IMG/VR virus record: IMGVR_UViG_3300025108_007749
Coordinates: 1-37,480 of that record
Reading direction: 5' to 3' (one strand)
Length of the DNA: 37,480 bases
Source of the DNA: a virus
The notes beneath the pieces are model-generated. The model saw only the letters and a list, made by a program, of their open reading frames with translations, was not told the origin of the DNA and did not search any database. Positions 20,848-37,480 of this stretch are shown here, piece by piece. Within the stretch, counting starts at the first letter, position 1; each line of letters begins with the position of its first letter. The translations under genes were made by a program, and so were the position numbers.

Positions 20848-21442
20848 GCACTTTCAAACCGATTCAGTCAAAGTCAAGGATGCCACAAAGGGCATTGTGA
20901 CAGGCTATGGCTCCCAATTCATGAATGTAGATTCCTATGGTGACAGGGTTTTCCCAGAAGCCTTTGATAAAACATTACAGAACCGTTCCAGACCCGTTCG
21001 TATGAGGTGGAACCACCACGGCGCAGTTATTGGCAAATGGGATGCAATCACACCAGATGATGCCGGATTGTACATGGAAGGAAGTTTGACACCTGGACAC
21101 TCAGTGGCAGAGGACACCAAAGCATCTATTTTGCACGGTGCAATTGATGGCATGAGCATTGGTTACATTGAGAAGCGCGTTGAAAAGAACGATTTTGGCG
21201 GTGTTGACATCTACGAACTGGACTTAATCGAGGTTTCTATTGTAGAGGAACCGGCCAATTTAGGCGCAAGTATTACAGCTATCAAGGCCATTGAGGAACT
21301 TGACAGCATAAAAGAGATTGAAAGATACCTCCGCGATGGTTTAGGACTTTCACAAAAAGCGGCAATGACGTTAATAAGCCGCATCAAAAATCACCGCGAT
21401 GGTGATGTCATTGACTGTTCAGGAATAAGACTGAGCATCTAA
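20837..21442 (+). CDS. Prohead maturation protease, HK97 family
   Basis: 201 residues. The fold signature is present: Gly-Ile-Val-Thr-Gly-Tyr-Gly-Ser, Val-Arg-Met-Arg-Trp-Asn-His60-His61 and Ala-Ile-Asp-Gly-Met-Ser107-Ile-Gly-Tyr, followed by Glu-Val-Ser-Ile-Val-Glu-Glu-Pro. One of the adjacent His and Ser107 form the catalytic pair of this U35-type serine protease. It removes the capsid protein's N-terminal scaffold (delta) segment during assembly. GAGG lies eight bases before the ATG. Confidence 0.93.
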   Translation: MKYKHFQTDSVKVKDATKGIVTGYGSQFMNVDSYGDRVFPEAFDKTLQNRSRPVRMRWNHHGAVIGKWDAITPDDAGLYMEGSLTPGHSVAEDTKASILHGAIDGMSIGYIEKRVEKNDFGGVDIYELDLIEVSIVEEPANLGASITAIKAIEELDSIKEIERYLRDGLGLSQKAAMTLISRIKNHRDGDVIDCSGIRLSI

Positions 21443-21452
21443 TTTAAACCAA

Positions 21453-21509
21453 GCGCATTTTGAATGCCTACCCAGAAATGGGCGGGGCGGTTCGACTGTG
21501 CGCGTAATT
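21453..21509 (+). promoter_or_regulatory. Structured leader element copy 1, before the capsid gene
   Basis: Outer GCGCA (21453-21457) pairs with TGCGC (21499-21503). Inside, CCT-A-CCCA (21467-21474) pairs with TGGG-C-GGG (21479-21486) around a GAAA tetraloop. It is about 77% identical over 57 bases to the element at 27305-27361, the same length and the same 18 bases from the ATG. Two base pairs of the hairpin differ in a compensatory way between copies. Probably an RNA element controlling translation or stability of the most abundant virion messages. Confidence 0.75.
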
Positions 21510-21521
21510 TACGAGATCACT

Positions 21522-22745
21522 ATGGAAATTAAAAACGCAGACGACTTGTTAGCACAGGTCGAAACACAGGTTAAATCATTGAATGAGGCACAAGCTTCTA
21601 AGATTGATTTAATGGTTAAGAAATACACCGATGAAGTGAAAGCTAATGGCGAGGCTTCAGAGGAAACCAGAGAGAAGCTAAAGCAGACATGTGACCAAAT
21701 GGAAGAAATGCGCGAGAAAACCGCGGAACTTTCAGAAAAGTTACTGGATTTGCAACAAAAGCTGACGGAAGGTTTTAACCCCGGTACAACTAAGTCTATT
21801 GGTGAACAACTGACTGAATCAGAAAGTTACAAGCAGTTTGCCAATAAAGAGCGAAACCAGATGGTTATCGAGGTCAAAAACACCATTTTGACTGAATCAG
21901 GCTCACCATTAGAGCCATCTTCTGACTTGGTTCAGCAAGATTATAGGGCTTTGAATGCCGCACCATTTCGACAGTTGAATTTGTTGGACATCATCCCTAC
22001 TGGCTCAACTGCATCTAACATGATTCATATCCCTAAAGAGACATCGCACACTAATGCTGCTGCTGAGACTTCTCAGGGTGAAACCATGCCTGAATCAGCA
22101 ATCGTTTATGGTTCGCAAGAGCTGCCAGTTAGAGATATTGACCATTTCATTGAAGTTGCAGAACAGGCTTTGGCTGATGCGCCTTTCATTGAAGGTCACA
22201 TCAATATGAGAATGAACCACGGCATTAGACACCGTTTGCAGACTCAAATTATATCTGGCAACGGCACCACTCCGAACTTGTCTGGATTGACCGATACAGG
22301 AAACTTCACAGCTTTCACACCAGCCACTGGTGATACCGCTATGGATTCTTTGAACAAGGCCAAGTATTCAATTGTTGGTGGTGACTATCAGGCAACACAT
22401 ATCCTGATGAACCCAGCAACGTTTGGATCAATTGAGCGTGTCAAAGTTGGCACATCCAGAAATGATTATGCTTCTGGTGATGGCGTTGCTTTGACCTACA
22501 TCAATGGACAGCCTTATATCTGGGGCTTGCCTGTTGTGCTGAATAATGATGTCACTGCTAACAAATTGTTGGTAATTGACAACATGAACACAGGCTTGTG
22601 GACACGACAAGGTGTTGAGATTGAAATGACTAAATCTGATGGTACTAACTTCCAGAAGAAAATTGTCACTATCCGAGGCACAGGACGCTTTGCGTTCGGC
22701 GTGTTTAGAAATGCCGCTGTCCAATACGGCGACTTAACTGTTTAA
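21522..22745 (+). CDS. Major capsid protein, HK97 fold
   Basis: 407 residues from the ATG at 21522. The first 95 or so residues form a charged coiled coil (Leu-Ala-Gln-Val-Glu-Thr-Gln-Val-Lys-Ser-Leu; Thr-Arg-Glu-Lys-Leu-Lys), the delta scaffold removed by the protease. The rest is the Phage_capsid domain: Phe-Arg-Gln-Leu-Asn-Leu-Leu-Asp, Glu-Leu-Pro-Val-Arg-Asp-Ile, Gly-His-Ile-Asn-Met-Arg-Met, Asn-Gly-Thr-Thr-Pro-Asn-Leu-Ser-Gly-Leu and the C-terminal Arg-Gly-Thr-Gly-Arg-Phe-Ala-Phe-Gly-Val. ACGAG is the only SD-like sequence; the structured leader precedes it. A strong terminator follows. Confidence 0.95.
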   Translation: MEIKNADDLLAQVETQVKSLNEAQASKIDLMVKKYTDEVKANGEASEETREKLKQTCDQMEEMREKTAELSEKLLDLQQKLTEGFNPGTTKSIGEQLTESESYKQFANKERNQMVIEVKNTILTESGSPLEPSSDLVQQDYRALNAAPFRQLNLLDIIPTGSTASNMIHIPKETSHTNAAAETSQGETMPESAIVYGSQELPVRDIDHFIEVAEQALADAPFIEGHINMRMNHGIRHRLQTQIISGNGTTPNLSGLTDTGNFTAFTPATGDTAMDSLNKAKYSIVGGDYQATHILMNPATFGSIERVKVGTSRNDYASGDGVALTYINGQPYIWGLPVVLNNDVTANKLLVIDNMNTGLWTRQGVEIEMTKSDGTNFQKKIVTIRGTGRFAFGVFRNAAVQYGDLTV

Positions 22746-22751
22746 CCCTTT

Positions 22752-22784
22752 AAGGGGTGGGCTAATAACCTGCCCCTTTTTTTA
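22752..22784 (+). terminator. Terminator after the capsid gene
   Basis: AAGGGGTGGG (22752-22761) pairs with CCTGCCCCTT (22769-22778), two G-T wobbles, loop CTAATAA, then a seven-T run continuing to about 22783. Being inside the late operon, it should lower expression of downstream neck genes relative to capsid. Confidence 0.88.
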
Positions 22785-22786
22785 TT

Positions 22787-22981
22787 ATGAAATACAAAGC
22801 AAATTGCGACTTTCACGATTCCCGCGTTGGCCGGATGAGAAAAGGTGACATTATTGACGAAAAGCCGGGTTGTAAGGATTTGGCTGTAGCTGGTTATCTG
22901 ACCGAGTATAAAACCAAAGTTGTACAGCAACGTCCTGAGAAAGTCACCAAAAAGAAAACCAAGAAAAAAGCCAAGAAATGA
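22787..22981 (+). CDS. Small Lys-rich protein between capsid and connector
   Basis: 64 residues. The N-terminal 45 residues look like a small beta fold (Tyr-Lys-Ala-Asn-Cys-Asp-Phe; Lys-Gly-Asp-Ile-Ile-Asp-Glu), followed by a tail of nearly alternating Lys and Thr (Lys-Lys-Lys-Thr-Lys-Lys-Lys-Ala-Lys-Lys). The start is two bases after the terminator T-run and lacks an SD. It could be a head decoration or DNA-contacting minor protein; not recognised. Confidence 0.7.
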   Translation: MKYKANCDFHDSRVGRMRKGDIIDEKPGCKDLAVAGYLTEYKTKVVQQRPEKVTKKKTKKKAKK

Positions 22982-23532
22982 GATATTCAGTCACCACAAC
23001 AACGCCGGATTATTACCCTGTAACACTGGCTCAGTGTAAAGATGTTTTAAACATATCTGACACTGCGCATGATGACAAAATCACCATCATGTTACAGGCC
23101 GCTACTAATGAGGCTGAAAACTTCACAGGTGCTATGTTTGCACAGCGTACGGTTACTTTGTACTTTGAAGATGTGGTGGCTTACTATCGTTTACCCGTTT
23201 ACCCTGTCCGTGCTATTGATTCTGTTGAATATCTAAGCACAACATACACGGCGTTCACAGACTACGAAGCTGATTTAAACGATGCGCCACCACTGGTAAG
23301 GTTTAAATCATTGCCAAGTGTTGATGACACCATAGTACCCATTAAATTTACACTGTCTGCTGGCTACCCATCAGGCACAAGTCCTGCAAGTGCTGACCAA
23401 ATACCTGACGCAGTAAAACAAGCGATTATCTTTCACGTTTACCAGTCTTTTATATCACCCGGTGAGATGTCAGGTGATGCCCAGCGTACTTTCTGGAACA
23501 TGTTATCACCTTACAGGGTTTTGGGTTTGTGA
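22978..23532 (+). CDS. Head-tail connector, HK97 gp6-like
   Basis: 184 residues. The N-terminal Val-Thr-Leu-Ala-Gln-Cys-Lys-Asp-Val-Leu-Asn-Ile, Asp-Asp-Lys-Ile-Thr-x-Met-Leu-Gln-Ala-Ala-Thr-Asn-Glu-Ala-Glu-Asn-Phe-Thr-Gly and Leu-Pro-Val-Tyr-Pro-Val-Arg-Ala-Ile, with a C-terminal Ile-Pro-Asp-Ala-Val-Lys-Gln-Ala-Ile, is the gp6-like connector pattern. It forms the ring below the portal. Its stop overlaps the GTG of the first glycosyltransferase gene (GTGA), so that insertion is translationally coupled to a virion gene. Confidence 0.9.
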   Translation: MRYSVTTTTPDYYPVTLAQCKDVLNISDTAHDDKITIMLQAATNEAENFTGAMFAQRTVTLYFEDVVAYYRLPVYPVRAIDSVEYLSTTYTAFTDYEADLNDAPPLVRFKSLPSVDDTIVPIKFTLSAGYPSGTSPASADQIPDAVKQAIIFHVYQSFISPGEMSGDAQRTFWNMLSPYRVLGL

Positions 23533-24215
23533 TAGCGGGCATATCCAGAATGAGAAACGAGTCCTTAATACTTGAGGACACTTTGAGTCACTTTTTCAAA
23601 CACTGTGACCACATTTATATCTATGACGACTGTTCTACAGATAACAGCGTTGAAATAATGAAATCCTTTGATGATGTGACCGTTATTGAGGGTAAGGAAT
23701 GGAGTCCAAACCAGTGGCATGAGGAAAGCAAACACAGAGGCCAATTATTAGACCTTGTTGATGCCGATATGTGCCTATGCTTTGATGCAGATGAACGCCT
23801 TGGTGGTGATTTGCCGAGTCAGAAAGGCGGGTTTACCCTTGATTTGTATGACGGATATTTAACGCCCGACAGACAAGAGCCTTACACCAAAGGTGATTTA
23901 TCCCGATTGCCACGGTTATGGGGAACCGAATGCAGGCAAATACTGATGTATTTTGACCCTAAAAAAGCCAGATACGACCGAAGCGGCCAAAGAGAGCCGA
24001 CATACACAGGGAATGTACAAAAATCAGGCATAAAAGTTAAACATTATGGCAAATGCTTGAGTATTGACCATTGGGATGATACGTGCGACTTCTACGCCAC
24101 ATATTTTCCACAATGGCGCGATAAATGGAACGCCAGAAAAGGAAAAGCGATTCACACCAAGTCAGATTTTGGCTCAGAACTACATACATGGTCTGAATTA
24201 TGCAAAAAATACTAA
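23529..24215 (+). CDS. Glycosyltransferase, GT2-like (GT-A fold)
   Basis: 228 residues, starting at GTG. Residues 1-55 match family 2 glycosyltransferases (Ile-Ser-Arg-Met-Arg-Asn-Glu-Ser, Ile-Tyr-Ile-Tyr-Asp-Asp-Cys-Ser-Thr-Asp-Asn-Ser), with a metal/nucleotide-sugar DxD in Cys-Phe-Asp-Ala-Asp-Glu (about residue 85). The C-terminal half has Arg-Leu-Pro-Arg-Leu-Trp-Gly and Lys-Val-Lys-His-Tyr-Gly-Lys. No signal peptide or membrane helix is visible. Donor and acceptor are unknown. It lies between two neck genes and must be expressed late with the virion proteins. Confidence 0.85.
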   Translation: MIAGISRMRNESLILEDTLSHFFKHCDHIYIYDDCSTDNSVEIMKSFDDVTVIEGKEWSPNQWHEESKHRGQLLDLVDADMCLCFDADERLGGDLPSQKGGFTLDLYDGYLTPDRQEPYTKGDLSRLPRLWGTECRQILMYFDPKKARYDRSGQREPTYTGNVQKSGIKVKHYGKCLSIDHWDDTCDFYATYFPQWRDKWNARKGKAIHTKSDFGSELHTWSELCKKY

Positions 24216-24997
24216 TCACAGGCAAATTCAGCCCTTTTGGTAGCCGTCCCATAGGTGGGCTTCAATCATGGATATTAACCGTTCACAATGAGCTTGTGAG
24301 GCTTGGACATGATGTAACTGTGTGGGAACCACATGACTGCAAATACTATCCAGAAGGTACGACCTTTGATTTAGGTATATTTGCAAACATAGATTTAACC
24401 AGAAACGCAATTGTTACATGTAAAAAATCAATCCTTATCAGCCACGGCATTATTGACGCTGAAAAACCAGATAATTCATGCGATGCGTTGATGTTTGTTA
24501 GTGAGGGTGTCCGCGATCACTGGAAAATGGATGGCGAGATTATCAGACAGCCAATTGACCTTGAGTTTTGGAAGCCAGAACGATTGGAAAAGAACAAATT
24601 AACCCGTTATTCCTACCGATACGGAAACATCCACGGCGAAAAGGTCGCTGACATGCTTGATATGGATTATCTACACGCAAAGGACTTAACCCACAGACAA
24701 GCGCGTGATGTGATTAATTCTAGTCATTTAGTGTTCGCTACAGGCCGTGCAGCACTTGAGGCAATGGCTTGTGACGTTCCCACGGTTATTTATGACCACC
24801 GTGACGCTTACCAACCAGCTTTAATGGGTGAATGGCTTCATAAAGAAATGAAACAAAGCTATTCAGGCCGTTCAGGTTACACACCAAGCCTATCTAAAGT
24901 GTTGGCAAAGGCGAAAAAAGAGCTTAACCATTATGGGTGGCGAAAATGGGTGGCTGAAAACCACGATGTAAGGAAAATCGTTAAGCAGCTATGCTAA
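24200..24997 (+). CDS. Glycosyltransferase, GT4-like (GT-B fold)
   Basis: 265 residues. The N-terminus Lys-Ile-Leu-Ile-Thr-Gly-Lys-Phe-Ser-Pro with Gly-Gly-Leu-Gln-Ser-Trp and Glu-Leu-Val-Arg-Leu-Gly-His-Asp-Val-Thr-Val-Trp is the GT4 acceptor domain. The donor-side signature is Thr-Gly-Arg-Ala-Ala-Leu-Glu-Ala-Met-Ala-Cys-Asp-Val-Pro-Thr-Val-Ile-Tyr-Asp. At 265 residues it is shorter than bacterial GT4 enzymes (about 350-400), with a reduced middle. It overlaps the preceding GT2 by 16 bases and the next gene by seven. Confidence 0.85.
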   Translation: MQKILITGKFSPFGSRPIGGLQSWILTVHNELVRLGHDVTVWEPHDCKYYPEGTTFDLGIFANIDLTRNAIVTCKKSILISHGIIDAEKPDNSCDALMFVSEGVRDHWKMDGEIIRQPIDLEFWKPERLEKNKLTRYSYRYGNIHGEKVADMLDMDYLHAKDLTHRQARDVINSSHLVFATGRAALEAMACDVPTVIYDHRDAYQPALMGEWLHKEMKQSYSGRSGYTPSLSKVLAKAKKELNHYGWRKWVAENHDVRKIVKQLC

Positions 24998-26193
24998 AGG
25001 TCATAACACCCACTGGTGGCCGTCCAGAAGCGTTAAATCTGCTTAATAGCTACTTAGAAAGGCAGACATATCAAGATTTTCAATGGATTGTACTGGATGA
25101 CTGCGAGCCGGTTAGCGAAATACCGTCAAGATGTGATGTTTTTATCCAATCTGACTGGATTTGGAACGGTGAAAACACACAGCACAGGGCAATGGCCAGA
25201 TTGCTTGATGAAGTGGGGAAAAATGACAGTGTGATTGTATGTGAGGATGACGACTGGTATGCACCGGAATACATCGAGAAAACAGCCAATTTACTGCAAA
25301 AACACGACCTTGTAGGGCAAAAAAAGAGCCTTTATTACAACATTCAGAACAAAACATACCGAAAATTTAACCACAAAGACCATGCTTGCTTATGTCAGAC
25401 GGCATTAAAAGGCAAAGCAGTAGAAAAACTAAGGGAAATATGTCGTAAAAGCAACAAACCGATTGATATCACTCTATGGCAGAGCTTTAAAGGTCATTTA
25501 ACGGCTGCTATGGATGTTGTCGGGATAAAGGGGTTAAAAGGCCGTGGTGGGATTGGAATTGGCCACAAAATGGAAGGTAAAAAGGATGATTGGTCATATC
25601 TTGAATCAATTATTGGCAAGGATGTGACCAACTACCGTAAACGCTTCTTTATTTGCGCGTCCGGCGGTTCATTAACTCAAGAAGATGTGGATTATATCAA
25701 AGGAAAGGGAACGGTGATTGTAATCAACAACACTTTCCAACTGGCACCTTGGGCTGACATCGTTTATGCGTGTGATGTGCCGTGGTGGAAAAAATATCCA
25801 GAAGCCTTAGACCATCAAGGCCAAAAGATGTCCATTTTGTATGACCACCCGAAAGTTAAAAAATGGCCGTACGATAACACCAGAAACGGCATTGGATTAG
25901 ACCGAATCAGAACTGGCGGCAACTCAGGCCACCAGTGCATAAACCTTGCCTACTTATTGGGCGCAAATGAAATCATTTTATTAGGCTATGACATGCAGAA
26001 CACCAATGGTAAATCACATTGGCACGGCGACCATGTTAAGGGCTTGAATCAGCAGACCTGCTTTAGCGGATGGATTAATCACATGCGCATTGTTGCACAA
26101 GATTGCGAACGATTGGGCGTGAAGGTTTACAACTGCTCAAGACAAACCGCGCTTGAATGCTTTGAACGCAGAGAATTAAGAGAATTATGCTAA
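24991..26193 (+). CDS. Two-domain protein: GT2-like domain plus DUF115-like domain
   Basis: 400 residues. Residues 1-200 are GT-A-like: Val-Ile-Thr-Pro-Thr-Gly-Gly-Arg-Pro, Trp-Ile-Val-Leu-Asp-Asp-Cys and Val-Cys-Glu-Asp-Asp-Asp-Trp-Tyr as the acidic metal motif. Residues about 215-400 resemble DUF115/MptE-like modules seen in phages: Cys-Ala-Ser-Gly-Gly-Ser-Leu-Thr, Val-Ile-Val-Ile-Asn-Asn-Thr, Trp-Ala-Asp-Ile-Val-Tyr-Ala-Cys-Asp-x-x-Trp-Trp, Gly-Asn-Ser-Gly-His-Gln and Ile-Ile-Leu-Leu-Gly-Tyr-Asp-Met. Some DUF115 proteins are sugar transferases. It overlaps the head-closure gene by seven bases. Both this and the preceding protein end Leu-Cys, their last codons sharing TATGCTAAA. Confidence 0.82.
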   Translation: MLKVITPTGGRPEALNLLNSYLERQTYQDFQWIVLDDCEPVSEIPSRCDVFIQSDWIWNGENTQHRAMARLLDEVGKNDSVIVCEDDDWYAPEYIEKTANLLQKHDLVGQKKSLYYNIQNKTYRKFNHKDHACLCQTALKGKAVEKLREICRKSNKPIDITLWQSFKGHLTAAMDVVGIKGLKGRGGIGIGHKMEGKKDDWSYLESIIGKDVTNYRKRFFICASGGSLTQEDVDYIKGKGTVIVINNTFQLAPWADIVYACDVPWWKKYPEALDHQGQKMSILYDHPKVKKWPYDNTRNGIGLDRIRTGGNSGHQCINLAYLLGANEIILLGYDMQNTNGKSHWHGDHVKGLNQQTCFSGWINHMRIVAQDCERLGVKVYNCSRQTALECFERRELRELC

Positions 26194-26525
26194 ACCTCAA
26201 ACCCGCTGATATGCGCTTTCGCGTCACAATCCAATCACAACAGCGTGTGGTTGATTCTAACGGCCTTGAGACAGTCACATGGGTAGATGTGGCCACAAAC
26301 GTTCCAGCGGGCATCATAGCCCTGTCAGGCCGTGAATTAGAGGCTTTAGCACAGCCAATAGCGCAGTATAACGCCCGTGTGACCATTTATAAGCGCAATG
26401 ATATTGATGAGTCCATGCGCCTCGTTTTTGATGGCAGAAACTACGACATTAAGGACATCATACCCGACCCAACAAACAATGTTTACATGTCACTGATGTG
26501 TAAGACAGGCTACACCAATGGCTGA
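26187..26525 (+). CDS. Head closure / head-tail adaptor protein
   Basis: 112 residues. It matches the phage head-tail joining family (SPP1 gp16/HK97 gp7-like): Met-Arg-Phe-Arg-Val-Thr-Ile-Gln, Gly-Leu-Glu-Thr-Val-Thr-Trp-Val-Asp-Val, Ala-Gly-Ile-Ile-Ala-Leu-Ser-Gly-Arg-Glu-Leu-Glu, and the C-terminal Val-Phe-Asp-Gly-Arg-Asn-Tyr-Asp-Ile-Lys. It seals the connector after packaging. In related phages it follows the gp6 gene directly; here 2.65 kb of glycosyltransferase genes separate them. Confidence 0.88.
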   Translation: MLNLKPADMRFRVTIQSQQRVVDSNGLETVTWVDVATNVPAGIIALSGRELEALAQPIAQYNARVTIYKRNDIDESMRLVFDGRNYDIKDIIPDPTNNVYMSLMCKTGYTNG

Positions 26526-26937
26526 CGTTGAAATCTTAGGGCTAAAGGAGTTAGACCGCAAAATAAGACAGCTAACCCGCGCCACTGGCAAAAACTTTCT
26601 ATCACCCGCATTGCGTAAGGGTGCCAATGTGATACGTGACCAAGCAATCGAGAACGCACCACGCGACCCGACACCGGATGACATCAACATTGAGGATGAA
26701 ATCAAGGTCAGGCGTGACCCTAATCCCAAGCTGCAAGGCCAAAATGAAATCATGTACGTAAAGCCGTTTAAAAAGAACGTGTTTTACTGGCGATTCGTGG
26801 AGCTGGGAACAATTAAACAACCTGGACAAAGGTTTCTAACCAAAGCCTATGACCAAAAGAAAATGGAAGCTGTTCGAGCATTTATGGAAAACCTTTCAAA
26901 AGCAATAATTCGTGAAACCAAGAAGCTATCGAAATGA
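26518..26937 (+). CDS. HK97 gp10-like tail completion/neck protein
   Basis: 139 residues. Family features are Ile-Leu-Gly-Leu-Lys-Glu-Leu-Asp-Arg-Lys-Ile at the start, Ala-Leu-Arg-Lys-Gly-Ala-Asn-Val-Ile-Arg-Asp-Gln-Ala and Tyr-Trp-Arg-Phe-Val-Glu-Leu-Gly-Thr followed by Pro-Gly-Gln-Arg-Phe-Leu. It acts at the junction of neck and tail. It overlaps the upstream gene by eight bases and the next by four. Confidence 0.9.
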   Translation: MADVEILGLKELDRKIRQLTRATGKNFLSPALRKGANVIRDQAIENAPRDPTPDDINIEDEIKVRRDPNPKLQGQNEIMYVKPFKKNVFYWRFVELGTIKQPGQRFLTKAYDQKKMEAVRAFMENLSKAIIRETKKLSK

Positions 26938-27281
26938 CCGTCTATTCCTTACTTGCCGCCGACTCAGGCGTTACAGCTATCACCACCAAAATATATACCT
27001 CACAAGCACCACAAGGCACCACGCCGCCTTATGTTGTCGTTCGTATTATTAATACAAATCCTGAAAACCTACTTGCCGAAGTGCCAAACATCGAAAGCCA
27101 ATACACAGGCATTGAATGTATTGGCACCGACCAGTCCGGCTCAGTGAGTTTGTTTCTCGCATGTCGTGCCGCTTTAGAGCCACACGGCTACATGCAGGGC
27201 TTGCCTATCTATGGCGACCGCGATGCAGAGACAGGATATTACCGAACATTGATGGATTATTCCTACTGGAATAGCCGCTGA
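26934..27281 (+). CDS. Tail completion protein, DUF3168-like (gp17)
   Basis: 115 residues. Tyr-Ser-Leu-Leu-Ala-Ala-Asp-Ser-Gly-Val, Ile-Tyr-Thr-Ser-Gln-Ala-Pro-Gln-Gly-Thr-Thr-Pro-Pro-Tyr-Val-Val-Val and Ile-Glu-Cys-Ile-Gly-Thr are typical of the DUF3168 tail-terminator family. It should cap the tail tube at the neck. It is the last gene before the second structured leader. Confidence 0.88.
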   Translation: MTVYSLLAADSGVTAITTKIYTSQAPQGTTPPYVVVRIINTNPENLLAEVPNIESQYTGIECIGTDQSGSVSLFLACRAALEPHGYMQGLPIYGDRDAETGYYRTLMDYSYWNSR

Positions 27282-27304
27282 TGTAACTTAGTTTTTTAAC
27301 CAAA

Positions 27305-27361
27305 GCGCATATCGCATGCCTACCTCTAACGAGGCGGGGCGGCTTTTCTGTGCGCGTAATT
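27305..27361 (+). promoter_or_regulatory. Structured leader element copy 2, before the tail tube gene
   Basis: GCGCA (27305-27309) pairs with TGCGC (27351-27355). The inner hairpin has CCT-A-CCTC (27319-27326) with GAGG-C-GGG (27331-27338) around a TAAC loop. Compared with copy 1, C-G is replaced by T-A and A-T by C-G at equivalent pairs, so pairing is conserved while sequence changes. It ends 18 bases before the ATG, the same as copy 1. Confidence 0.75.
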
Positions 27362-27373
27362 CAGGAGTTTAAT

Positions 27374-27841
27374 ATGGCTTTAGGGCTTAAAACACAAGGC
27401 ACAGAGATTCTCTTGTTGGATGCTACCGACAGCGGGAACGAAGTGCGCAAATTGGGCAATATTACAGACATCGGGGAATTTGGCCCGACTGCCGGTGATA
27501 TTGATGTTACTAACATGGATTCAACCGCCATGGAGTATTTTTCAGGGCTGGTTGATAACGGCACTGTGACCATCGGGTTCAACTACGACCCGGCTAATGT
27601 CACACAGCAAACCTTAAGTGATTTGGCCGGTGGTGCAAACAAGCGTTTTGTTATCGCATGTTCAGAATCAGATACAGATGTGACATACACATCTACCTTT
27701 GTTATTCCAACCGACCGAACCACTCTGGACTTCCAAGCCAGTGTACAAGGTATGCCAAAAGGCGCGTCAGTTAATGACGTGTGGCGAGGCACTATCTCAT
27801 TGCGTGTATCAGGCGCAATCACTACTCAGGAAGCCGCTTAA
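27374..27841 (+). CDS. Major tail (tube) protein
   Basis: 155 residues from the ATG at 27374, with CAGGAG six bases upstream. It matches the phage tail tube family: Gly-Thr-Glu-Ile-Leu-Leu-Leu, Asp-Ile-Gly-Glu-Phe-Gly-Pro-Thr-Ala-Gly-Asp-Ile-Asp-Val-Thr-Asn-Met-Asp-Ser, Tyr-Phe-Ser-Gly-Leu-Val-Asp-Asn-Gly, and a C-terminal Gly-Thr-Ile-Ser-Leu-Arg-Val-Ser-Gly. It polymerises into the flexible tail tube. It is bounded by the structured leader and a terminator, as the capsid gene is, which should make it an abundant separate message. Confidence 0.9.
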   Translation: MALGLKTQGTEILLLDATDSGNEVRKLGNITDIGEFGPTAGDIDVTNMDSTAMEYFSGLVDNGTVTIGFNYDPANVTQQTLSDLAGGANKRFVIACSESDTDVTYTSTFVIPTDRTTLDFQASVQGMPKGASVNDVWRGTISLRVSGAITTQEAA

Positions 27842-27851
27842 CCGCGTTAAT

Positions 27852-27894
27852 GGGTGGGATTGTCGTTAATTCGGCTTTCCCATCCACCCTTTTT
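27852..27894 (+). terminator. Terminator after the tail tube gene
   Basis: GGGTGG (27852-27857) pairs with CCACCC (27884-27889), with an inner GTCG/CGGC helix (27862-27865, 27872-27875), then five T. Probably a partial terminator within the late operon. Confidence 0.75.
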
Positions 27895-36928: not shown

Positions 36929-37480
36929 TTACCATCGACGTTTAATCGGTAAAACCTTGTTCATTTCTTCAACAATTCGGTCAATGGGTTCGCCATTGCG
37001 CAACATCTTTAAGACTACTCGTTGTCTCTTTTGTACACGTGTATTATTGGCCTGTGTCACGGGGTCTGCCCATCGACAGTTGCTAGGCTCATAATTCCCG
37101 TCATTGTTAATACGGTCAATGCTGTGTTTTGGGCTTGGTTTCTTACCCATGTCCTTAGCAAACAATTCAAAGTTGTTAGCCCACCGGCTGCAAATAGATA
37201 TACCTCGACCGCCATAATGCTTGTAACCCTGAGAGTCTGGATTGGTGCATCTTTGAATTATCCCTTTCCATGTCTTATATAAAGGATGTTTTGAGTGGCA
37301 CTTTCTCTTGATGGGCTTGCCCTGAACGACATGTTTTTGATATGCAGCCCAGATTTTTTTGAGACCATCATCAATTTTCCCCAATGACATACTGTGCTTC
37401 TTACCCTTGATTTGTTTTTTCCAAATGACATACTTGCCTTTGTCAATACTGCAATTTGGAGGGAGATTTTTATTACTCAC
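36929..37480 (-). CDS. HNH-type endonuclease with integrase-like N-terminal domain
   Basis: 183 residues starting at a GTG on the very edge of the window, so an upstream extension cannot be excluded. Residues 1-50 (Asn-Leu-Pro-Pro-Asn-Cys-Ser-Ile-Asp-Lys-Gly-Lys-Tyr-Val; Lys-Lys-Gln-Ile-x-Gly-Lys; Ser-Leu-Gly-Lys; Asp-Asp-Gly-Leu) align with integrase residues 7-54 at roughly half identity. Residues 66-150 are the phage HNH-like family with Trp-Lys-Gly-Ile-Ile-Gln-Arg-Cys, Tyr-Gly-Gly-Arg-Gly-Ile, Met-Gly-Lys-Lys-Pro and Ser-Ile-Asp-Arg-Ile-Asn-Asn-Asp-Gly-Asn-Tyr-x-Pro-x-Asn-Cys-Arg-Trp. The C-terminus is basic. It may be a homing endonuclease or may act at integrase-related DNA sites. Confidence 0.82.
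   Translation of the reverse strand: MSNKNLPPNCSIDKGKYVIWKKQIKGKKHSMSLGKIDDGLKKIWAAYQKHVVQGKPIKRKCHSKHPLYKTWKGIIQRCTNPDSQGYKHYGGRGISICSRWANNFELFAKDMGKKPSPKHSIDRINNDGNYEPSNCRWADPVTQANNTRVQKRQRVVLKMLRNGEPIDRIVEEMNKVLPIKRRW

Follow-up and report, generated by a model that had tools for sequence, protein, structure and literature searches.

The window, by which we mean the whole stretch of DNA analyzed, is an IMG/VR virus record of 37,480 bp. Genes for an integrase-like protein, an S24-type repressor-like protein and RecT lie in its left part. The window also contains an HK97-type morphogenesis block encoding terminase, portal, protease, the major capsid protein (MCP), a head–tail adaptor, glycosyltransferase-like proteins, a gp17-like tail completion protein, the major tail (tube) protein (MTP) and the tape measure. 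The identities of MCP and MTP are based on PHROG matches (Table 1). The glycosyltransferase-like genes, three in number (23529–26190), lie within the head–tail block between the head–tail adaptor and the tail genes; all three are kept in one relative, L010, and the first two are without a match in another, L007. A further contig, L003, joins the sequence around window position 37480 with positions 1–102, and the genome is therefore probably circular or circularly permuted.

Table 1. Features of the capsid and tail-tube gene regions, in window coordinates
Feature	Position	Strand	Description
Coding-region hairpin	21390..21406	+	ATCACC-GCGAT-GGTGAT, protease gene 3′ end; window copy of the GNGAN hairpin
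Second hairpin, protease 3′ end	21416..21437	+	TGTTCAG..CTGAGCA, just before the stop codon; formed from other bases in L018, L021, L007 and L010
Repeat unit, copy 1	21443..21525	+	T-rich/AACC lead-in, then the hairpin, the ribosome-binding region and ATGG at the start of MCP
Hairpin, copy 1	21453..21503	+	GCGCAT ... GCCT-A-CCCA GAAA TGGG-CG-GGGC ... GTGCGC; −25.9 kcal/mol, 20 bp
18-nt spacer, MCP	21504..21521	+	Weak ribosome-binding sequence; read from sequence
Major capsid protein gene (MCP)	21522..22745	+	PHROG 10 major head protein, E 2.8e-41; ATG start
Intrinsic terminator 3′ of MCP	22752..22785	+	Terminator-like hairpin; same place in L096 and L020
Repeat unit, copy 2	27295..27377	+	Layout as copy 1, before the MTP gene
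Hairpin, copy 2	27305..27355	+	GCGCATA ... CCTC TAAC GAGG ... TGTGCGC; −22.7 kcal/mol, 18 bp
18-nt spacer, MTP	27356..27373	+	CAGGAG ribosome-binding sequence; read from sequence
Major tail (tube) protein gene (MTP)	27374..27841	+	PHROG 158 major tail protein, E 4.9e-23
Terminator 3′ of MTP	27851..27891	+	Hairpin followed by T5; L096, L020 and L013 have a hairpin at this position

The MCP and MTP genes are preceded by the two copies of an ungapped 83-nt repeat with 76% identity. Each repeat unit runs from a TTTAA–CC lead-in through a hairpin and a ribosome-binding spacer to ATGG, where it ends; outside the unit, the flanks and coding sequences of the two copies are unrelated. This pair is the best repeat of the whole window, with an ungapped score of 43 against 17 for the next best, and the best repeat in Markov-shuffled genomes (n = 25) scored 17.6 (s.d. 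0.9, maximum 19). A covariance model built from the two copies finds exactly two leaders in the window, each before the gene of a high-copy virion protein. These results bear out the original prediction of a structured, duplicated leader placed before only the capsid and tail-tube genes, and our recount agrees with its figure of 44 identities among the 57 positions of 21453–21509 and 27305–27361. The 18-base distance to the ATG is, as proposed, the same in both copies, although it is measured from the end of the stem (21503 and 27355) and not from the ends of those 57-base segments.

Each leader hairpin spans 51 nt with 18–20 pairs, and its 3′ end lies 18 nt before the ATG; the listed GTG 21498 of MCP falls within the first hairpin. 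The two copies have a common architecture: an outer stem (GCGCAT/GTGCGC) is separated by a variable internal loop from a middle stem (GCCT/GGGC), and beyond an A/CG internal loop the hairpin closes with four apical base pairs capped by a tetraloop. Differences between them are confined to the apical pairs, the loop and the internal loop, with the outer stem and TGCCTACC/GGCGGGGCGG invariant. The apical stem-loop reads CCCA-GAAA-TGGG in copy 1 and CCTC-TAAC-GAGG in copy 2, two pairs being changed on both sides. Of the two tetraloops, GAAA is of the GNRA type, and UAAC, as a member of the UMAC class, takes a GNRA-like fold. Folding thus confirms the shared outer pairing, the two co-changed pairs of the inner hairpin and the GAAA and TAAC tetraloops that had been predicted by inspection. 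Minimum free energies in 66-nt windows are −27.3 kcal/mol for copy 1 and −24.1 kcal/mol for copy 2 (z −3.95 and −2.84, respectively); in 83-nt windows, z is −3.03 for copy 1 and only −1.23 for copy 2. The sense strand folds well in both copies, the antisense strand less well. When kept pairs and double changes were compared with random substitution (13 substitutions over 57 positions), P was 0.005–0.025, depending on which copy's structure was used; the covariation between the two copies is supportive, yet only modestly better than random substitution. The probability that the ribosome site is unpaired is higher in the native leaders than the shuffled-leader mean, but not significantly (P 0.33 and 0.14), and the idea that the leader exposes the ribosome site was rejected on this ground.

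Relatives were gathered through their portal, MCP and MTP proteins. An exact-pattern search of viral contigs returned four contigs that are 99.9–100% identical to the window; the other matches of the exact and relaxed DNA patterns in viral contigs were rejected by the covariance model as chance. Among the matches listed, relaxed patterns and the covariance model gave no further member in approximately 210 loci. With E values as high as 5 allowed, no Rfam 15 family matched the leader region; public phages searched by blastn with copy 1 and with the leader of L007 gave no credible hit; and the covariance model had no match in the full HK022 genome. The covariance-model search of phages that was suggested with the original prediction thus recovered, among the matches listed, the same population only and no covarying homologues, and the term “conserved RNA element” has to be withdrawn for a leader that is replaced in relatives. 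The long duplicated form is, among the matches listed, specific to this phage lineage.

Leaders at the corresponding positions in relatives are of several kinds. In L007 (MCP 83% identical), the MCP leader contains a shorter hairpin that has GGCGGTTYRACYGTGC in common with copy 1 and re-pairs GCAC/GTGC, and this leader is the one partial relative of the element (P 0.013 versus shuffles). The MTP leaders of L010 (MTP 84% identical) and L013 (MTP 95% identical) contain the short hairpins GCGCA-ATAA-TGCGC and GCGCC-TTAAT-GGTGC, each 18–19 nt before the ATG; their sequence homology to the element is not significant, the likeness being positional only. Together, the hairpins of the L007 MCP, L010 MTP and L013 MTP leaders end 18–20 nt before the ATG. 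The MCP leaders of the close relatives L018, L021 and L010 are without a hairpin, and the MTP leaders of L007, L097, L011, L095 and HK022 have terminator-like hairpins instead. Thus, the MCP and MTP slots commonly hold a hairpin whose kind varies, and the absence of any hairpin from three MCP leaders, together with the terminators in several MTP leaders, indicates that the leader hairpin is dispensable across the clade.

The expectation that a terminator follows each gene was also confirmed, since strong terminator-like hairpins lie behind both MCP and MTP, and occur there in relatives as well. Separately, an intrinsic-terminator-like hairpin lies directly upstream of MTP in L011, L095, L007, L097, L098, L100, L022 and HK022 (L157, 7218–7240); such hairpins in MTP leaders are common, which suggests that many HK97-like phages insulate the tube gene both upstream and downstream.

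We propose to read the repeat as a 5′ expression unit present in duplicate, comprising the hairpin, the 18-nt ribosome-binding spacer and the ATG, in which a cistron-border hairpin would stabilize the MCP and MTP messages or allow their processing; we give this reading an even chance of being correct. In the polycistronic late mRNA, the hairpin would form slightly beyond the area that an initiating ribosome is expected to cover and would mark the 5′ boundary of each of the two cistrons, MCP and MTP, so that, with the leader hairpin and the terminator hairpin, each message would have a structured start and a structured end. It may protect the message from 5′-end-dependent decay; alternatively, a double-strand-specific RNase may cut the hairpin, as at the RNase III sites of T7, to release stable messages. 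The messages concerned would be those of the two most abundant virion proteins. A cistron-border role is favored because hairpins occur at the same slot in L007, L010 and L013 and because terminators lie behind both genes. We infer that the hairpin forms in vivo, that it is processed or protective, and that it affects protein yield; the present form presumably arose in this phage lineage, one leader having been copied to the other place. How siphophages supply hundreds of capsid and tube copies from one late operon is well understood in few models, such as T7, and a common leader on exactly MCP and MTP would give a compact and portable answer to this copy-number problem.

Other readings of the leader are less probable. 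It may be a functionless leftover of an intragenomic duplication, or of gene conversion between leaders. The restriction of the element to one population among the matches listed, the ability of relatives to manage without it and a chance probability of the compensatory pattern that is not tiny all fit such an origin, but the stem, the invariant core and the spacing have been kept despite 24% divergence, and the similarity ends with the hairpin-to-ATG unit; we regard this as unlikely. Rather doubtful, in our estimation, is a protein-binding operator, in which a phage or host RNA-binding protein would recognize the GCCTACC/GGCGGGGCGG internal-loop helix and the GNRA-type loop and so co-regulate translation of MCP and MTP. 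The invariance of that helix and the interchange of GNRA-like loops are what such a protein would favor; against it, no further copy was found elsewhere, the element is not conserved in relatives whose MCP or MTP is 83–95% identical, and the hairpin lies outside the ribosome-binding site, whereas simple repression would require the two to overlap. We consider it very unlikely that the nascent hairpin modifies RNA polymerase for readthrough of the terminator after each gene, as a put-like antiterminator would. HK022 has two similar put RNAs (PMC9378689) and each copy here lies upstream of a terminator, but put RNAs consist of two stem-loops downstream of early promoters whereas a single hairpin between late genes is found here, the covariance model is without a match in HK022, and relatives retain the terminators without the element. 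Finally, a transcription signal—a weak terminator, or the hairpin at the 5′ end of an RNA started at a late promoter within the T-rich lead-in—is barely credible, for although both hairpins have a T-rich lead-in ahead of them and relatives have terminators at the MTP slot, the hairpins are followed by GTAATT and no T run, they are absent from the terminator scan, no sigma-70-like promoter was found before either leader, and promoter-like sites are fewer than in shuffles.

Turning to the sequence around the leaders, further hairpins lie at the 3′ ends of the genes before MCP and MTP. The hairpin just before the protease stop codon has arms that change together across the window and its relatives (TGTTCAG/CTGAGCA, TGCTCAA/TTGAGCA, GCTCTAA/TTAGAGC and TGTTCAAAA/TTTTGGACA). 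Long-range pairing of a protease-end hairpin arm with the MCP start was considered and, by eye, is not kept in relatives. At approximately 27255–27275, the tail completion gene that precedes MTP has a small hairpin over its final codons (D-Y-S-x-W), and this hairpin is re-formed with different bases in L007, L097, L095 and L011.

The other protease-end hairpin is an instance of a motif that we term GNGAN, located in the final codons of the prohead-protease gene: a stem of at least 5 pairs is closed by a GNRA-like pentaloop in which G-N-G-A is followed by one further base. At least one such hairpin occurs in the 250 nt before MCP in 60 of the 94 distinct loci with an MCP match. GNGAN words are flanked by stems in 88 of 565 cases (15.6%) before MCP and in 215 of 18233 (1.2%) elsewhere in the same loci, a 13-fold higher density, although these counts are not independent events, the set containing related sequences; for other pentamers in the same 250 nt, the figure is 0.9%. 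Hairpins of the GYGAN form number 0.71 per locus in the 250-bp bin before MCP against approximately 0.03 in other bins, with no peak before MTP. Shuffles that preserve protein and codon usage gave 8.1 hairpins (s.d. 2.5, maximum 15, 200 shuffles) versus 41 seen. The motif was first spotted by eye, and a fairer test is a second set of 23 protease genes of the Pfam family from bacterial genomes, which overlaps slightly with the first through a few genomes that also entered by the MCP search; here 17 were seen against 4.2 (s.d. 1.8, maximum 10, 300 shuffles). The G-A of the loop also begins a conserved Asp/Glu codon. At homologous LR[DE]xG codons, taken with no selection for stems, 211 pairs were counted against 177 (s.d. 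5.8, maximum 196, 1000 shuffles). In 5-bp stems with four Watson–Crick pairs, the fifth pair is G·U in 28 cases and A·C in 5, and this tolerance of G·U over A·C points to a coding-strand RNA rather than a DNA palindrome.

Carriers of the GNGAN hairpin include HK97, HK022, Serratia OS31, Klebsiella ST13-OXA48phi12.4, Moraxella Mcat21, a Pseudomonas phage and an Acinetobacter phage; by locus, they are the window, L007, L018, L021, L010, many of L025–L118, L143 (HK97), L157 (HK022), L146, L151, L152, L155 and L156. In HK97 and HK022, one such hairpin lies 88 nt before gene 5. Among carriers there are often two, spaced exactly 69 nt apart. The residues beneath the loop differ (R-D, G-D, G-E, S-D) while GNGAN is constant. 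GNGAN hairpins exceed what protein and codon constraint accounts for and are common to many HK97-like phages; we found no description of them in the literature examined and no Rfam match. It is possible, at somewhat under an even chance, that the HK97-like protease–capsid junction carries a widespread, undescribed RNA element of one or two GNGAN hairpins, mostly 40–140 nt before the capsid start, that controls capsid synthesis or mRNA fate, with the duplicated leader as a lineage-specific addition also copied to the tail-tube gene. The protease-end hairpin deserves separate study, and its presence in the classic phages HK97 and HK022 means that synonymous mutants could ask whether RNA structure in gene 4 sets the capsid level.

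Among known systems, the leader is most usefully set beside the RNase III sites of T7 (R0.3 to R6.5), which are also irregular intercistronic hairpins of approximately 50–60 nt with an internal loop, lie just upstream of ribosome-binding sites and occur as several related copies per genome. Helix lengths from the same folding program are 18–20 bp with internal loops for the leader and 17–26 bp for the T7 sites, which were taken at their known cut positions. The layout of MCP also matches that of T7 gene 10, in which a leader hairpin precedes the capsid gene and a terminator (Tφ) follows it. In contrast to T7, there is an extra A/CG internal loop in the apical part here, and neither sequence similarity nor a phage promoter was seen. 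The likeness to the RNase III sites and the gene 10 leader would be one of working, not of membership.

The start-associated sequences of cluster K mycobacteriophages (SAS/ESAS) are repeated sequences with an inverted repeat directly upstream of starts, for which a translational function has been suggested (PMC3203893). They occur in 11–19 copies per genome, in the genome half with non-structural genes, and have a 13-bp core near the ATG (PMC3203893), whereas the present element has two copies, stands before structural genes only and is unrelated in sequence. The 13-bp core GGGATAGGAGCCC, which lies 3–7 bp before the start, is missing from the spacers GTAATTTACGAGATCACT and GTAATTCAGGAGTTTAAT, and membership was rejected. 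The putL and putR RNAs of HK022 are two similar RNAs of approximately 70 nt that are active without protein factors (PMC9378689); each has two stem-loops, they lie in early operons downstream of early promoters, and they act on RNA polymerase (PMC9378689). The window resembles HK022 in that one phage genome carries a pair of similar structured RNAs, but membership was rejected for a single hairpin between late genes and a model without a match in HK022. The HK97 head gene record (U18319) carries stem_loop annotations where the portal gene ends and behind the capsid gene. Both lie away from the leader slot, and the protease 3′ hairpin is unannotated in that record.
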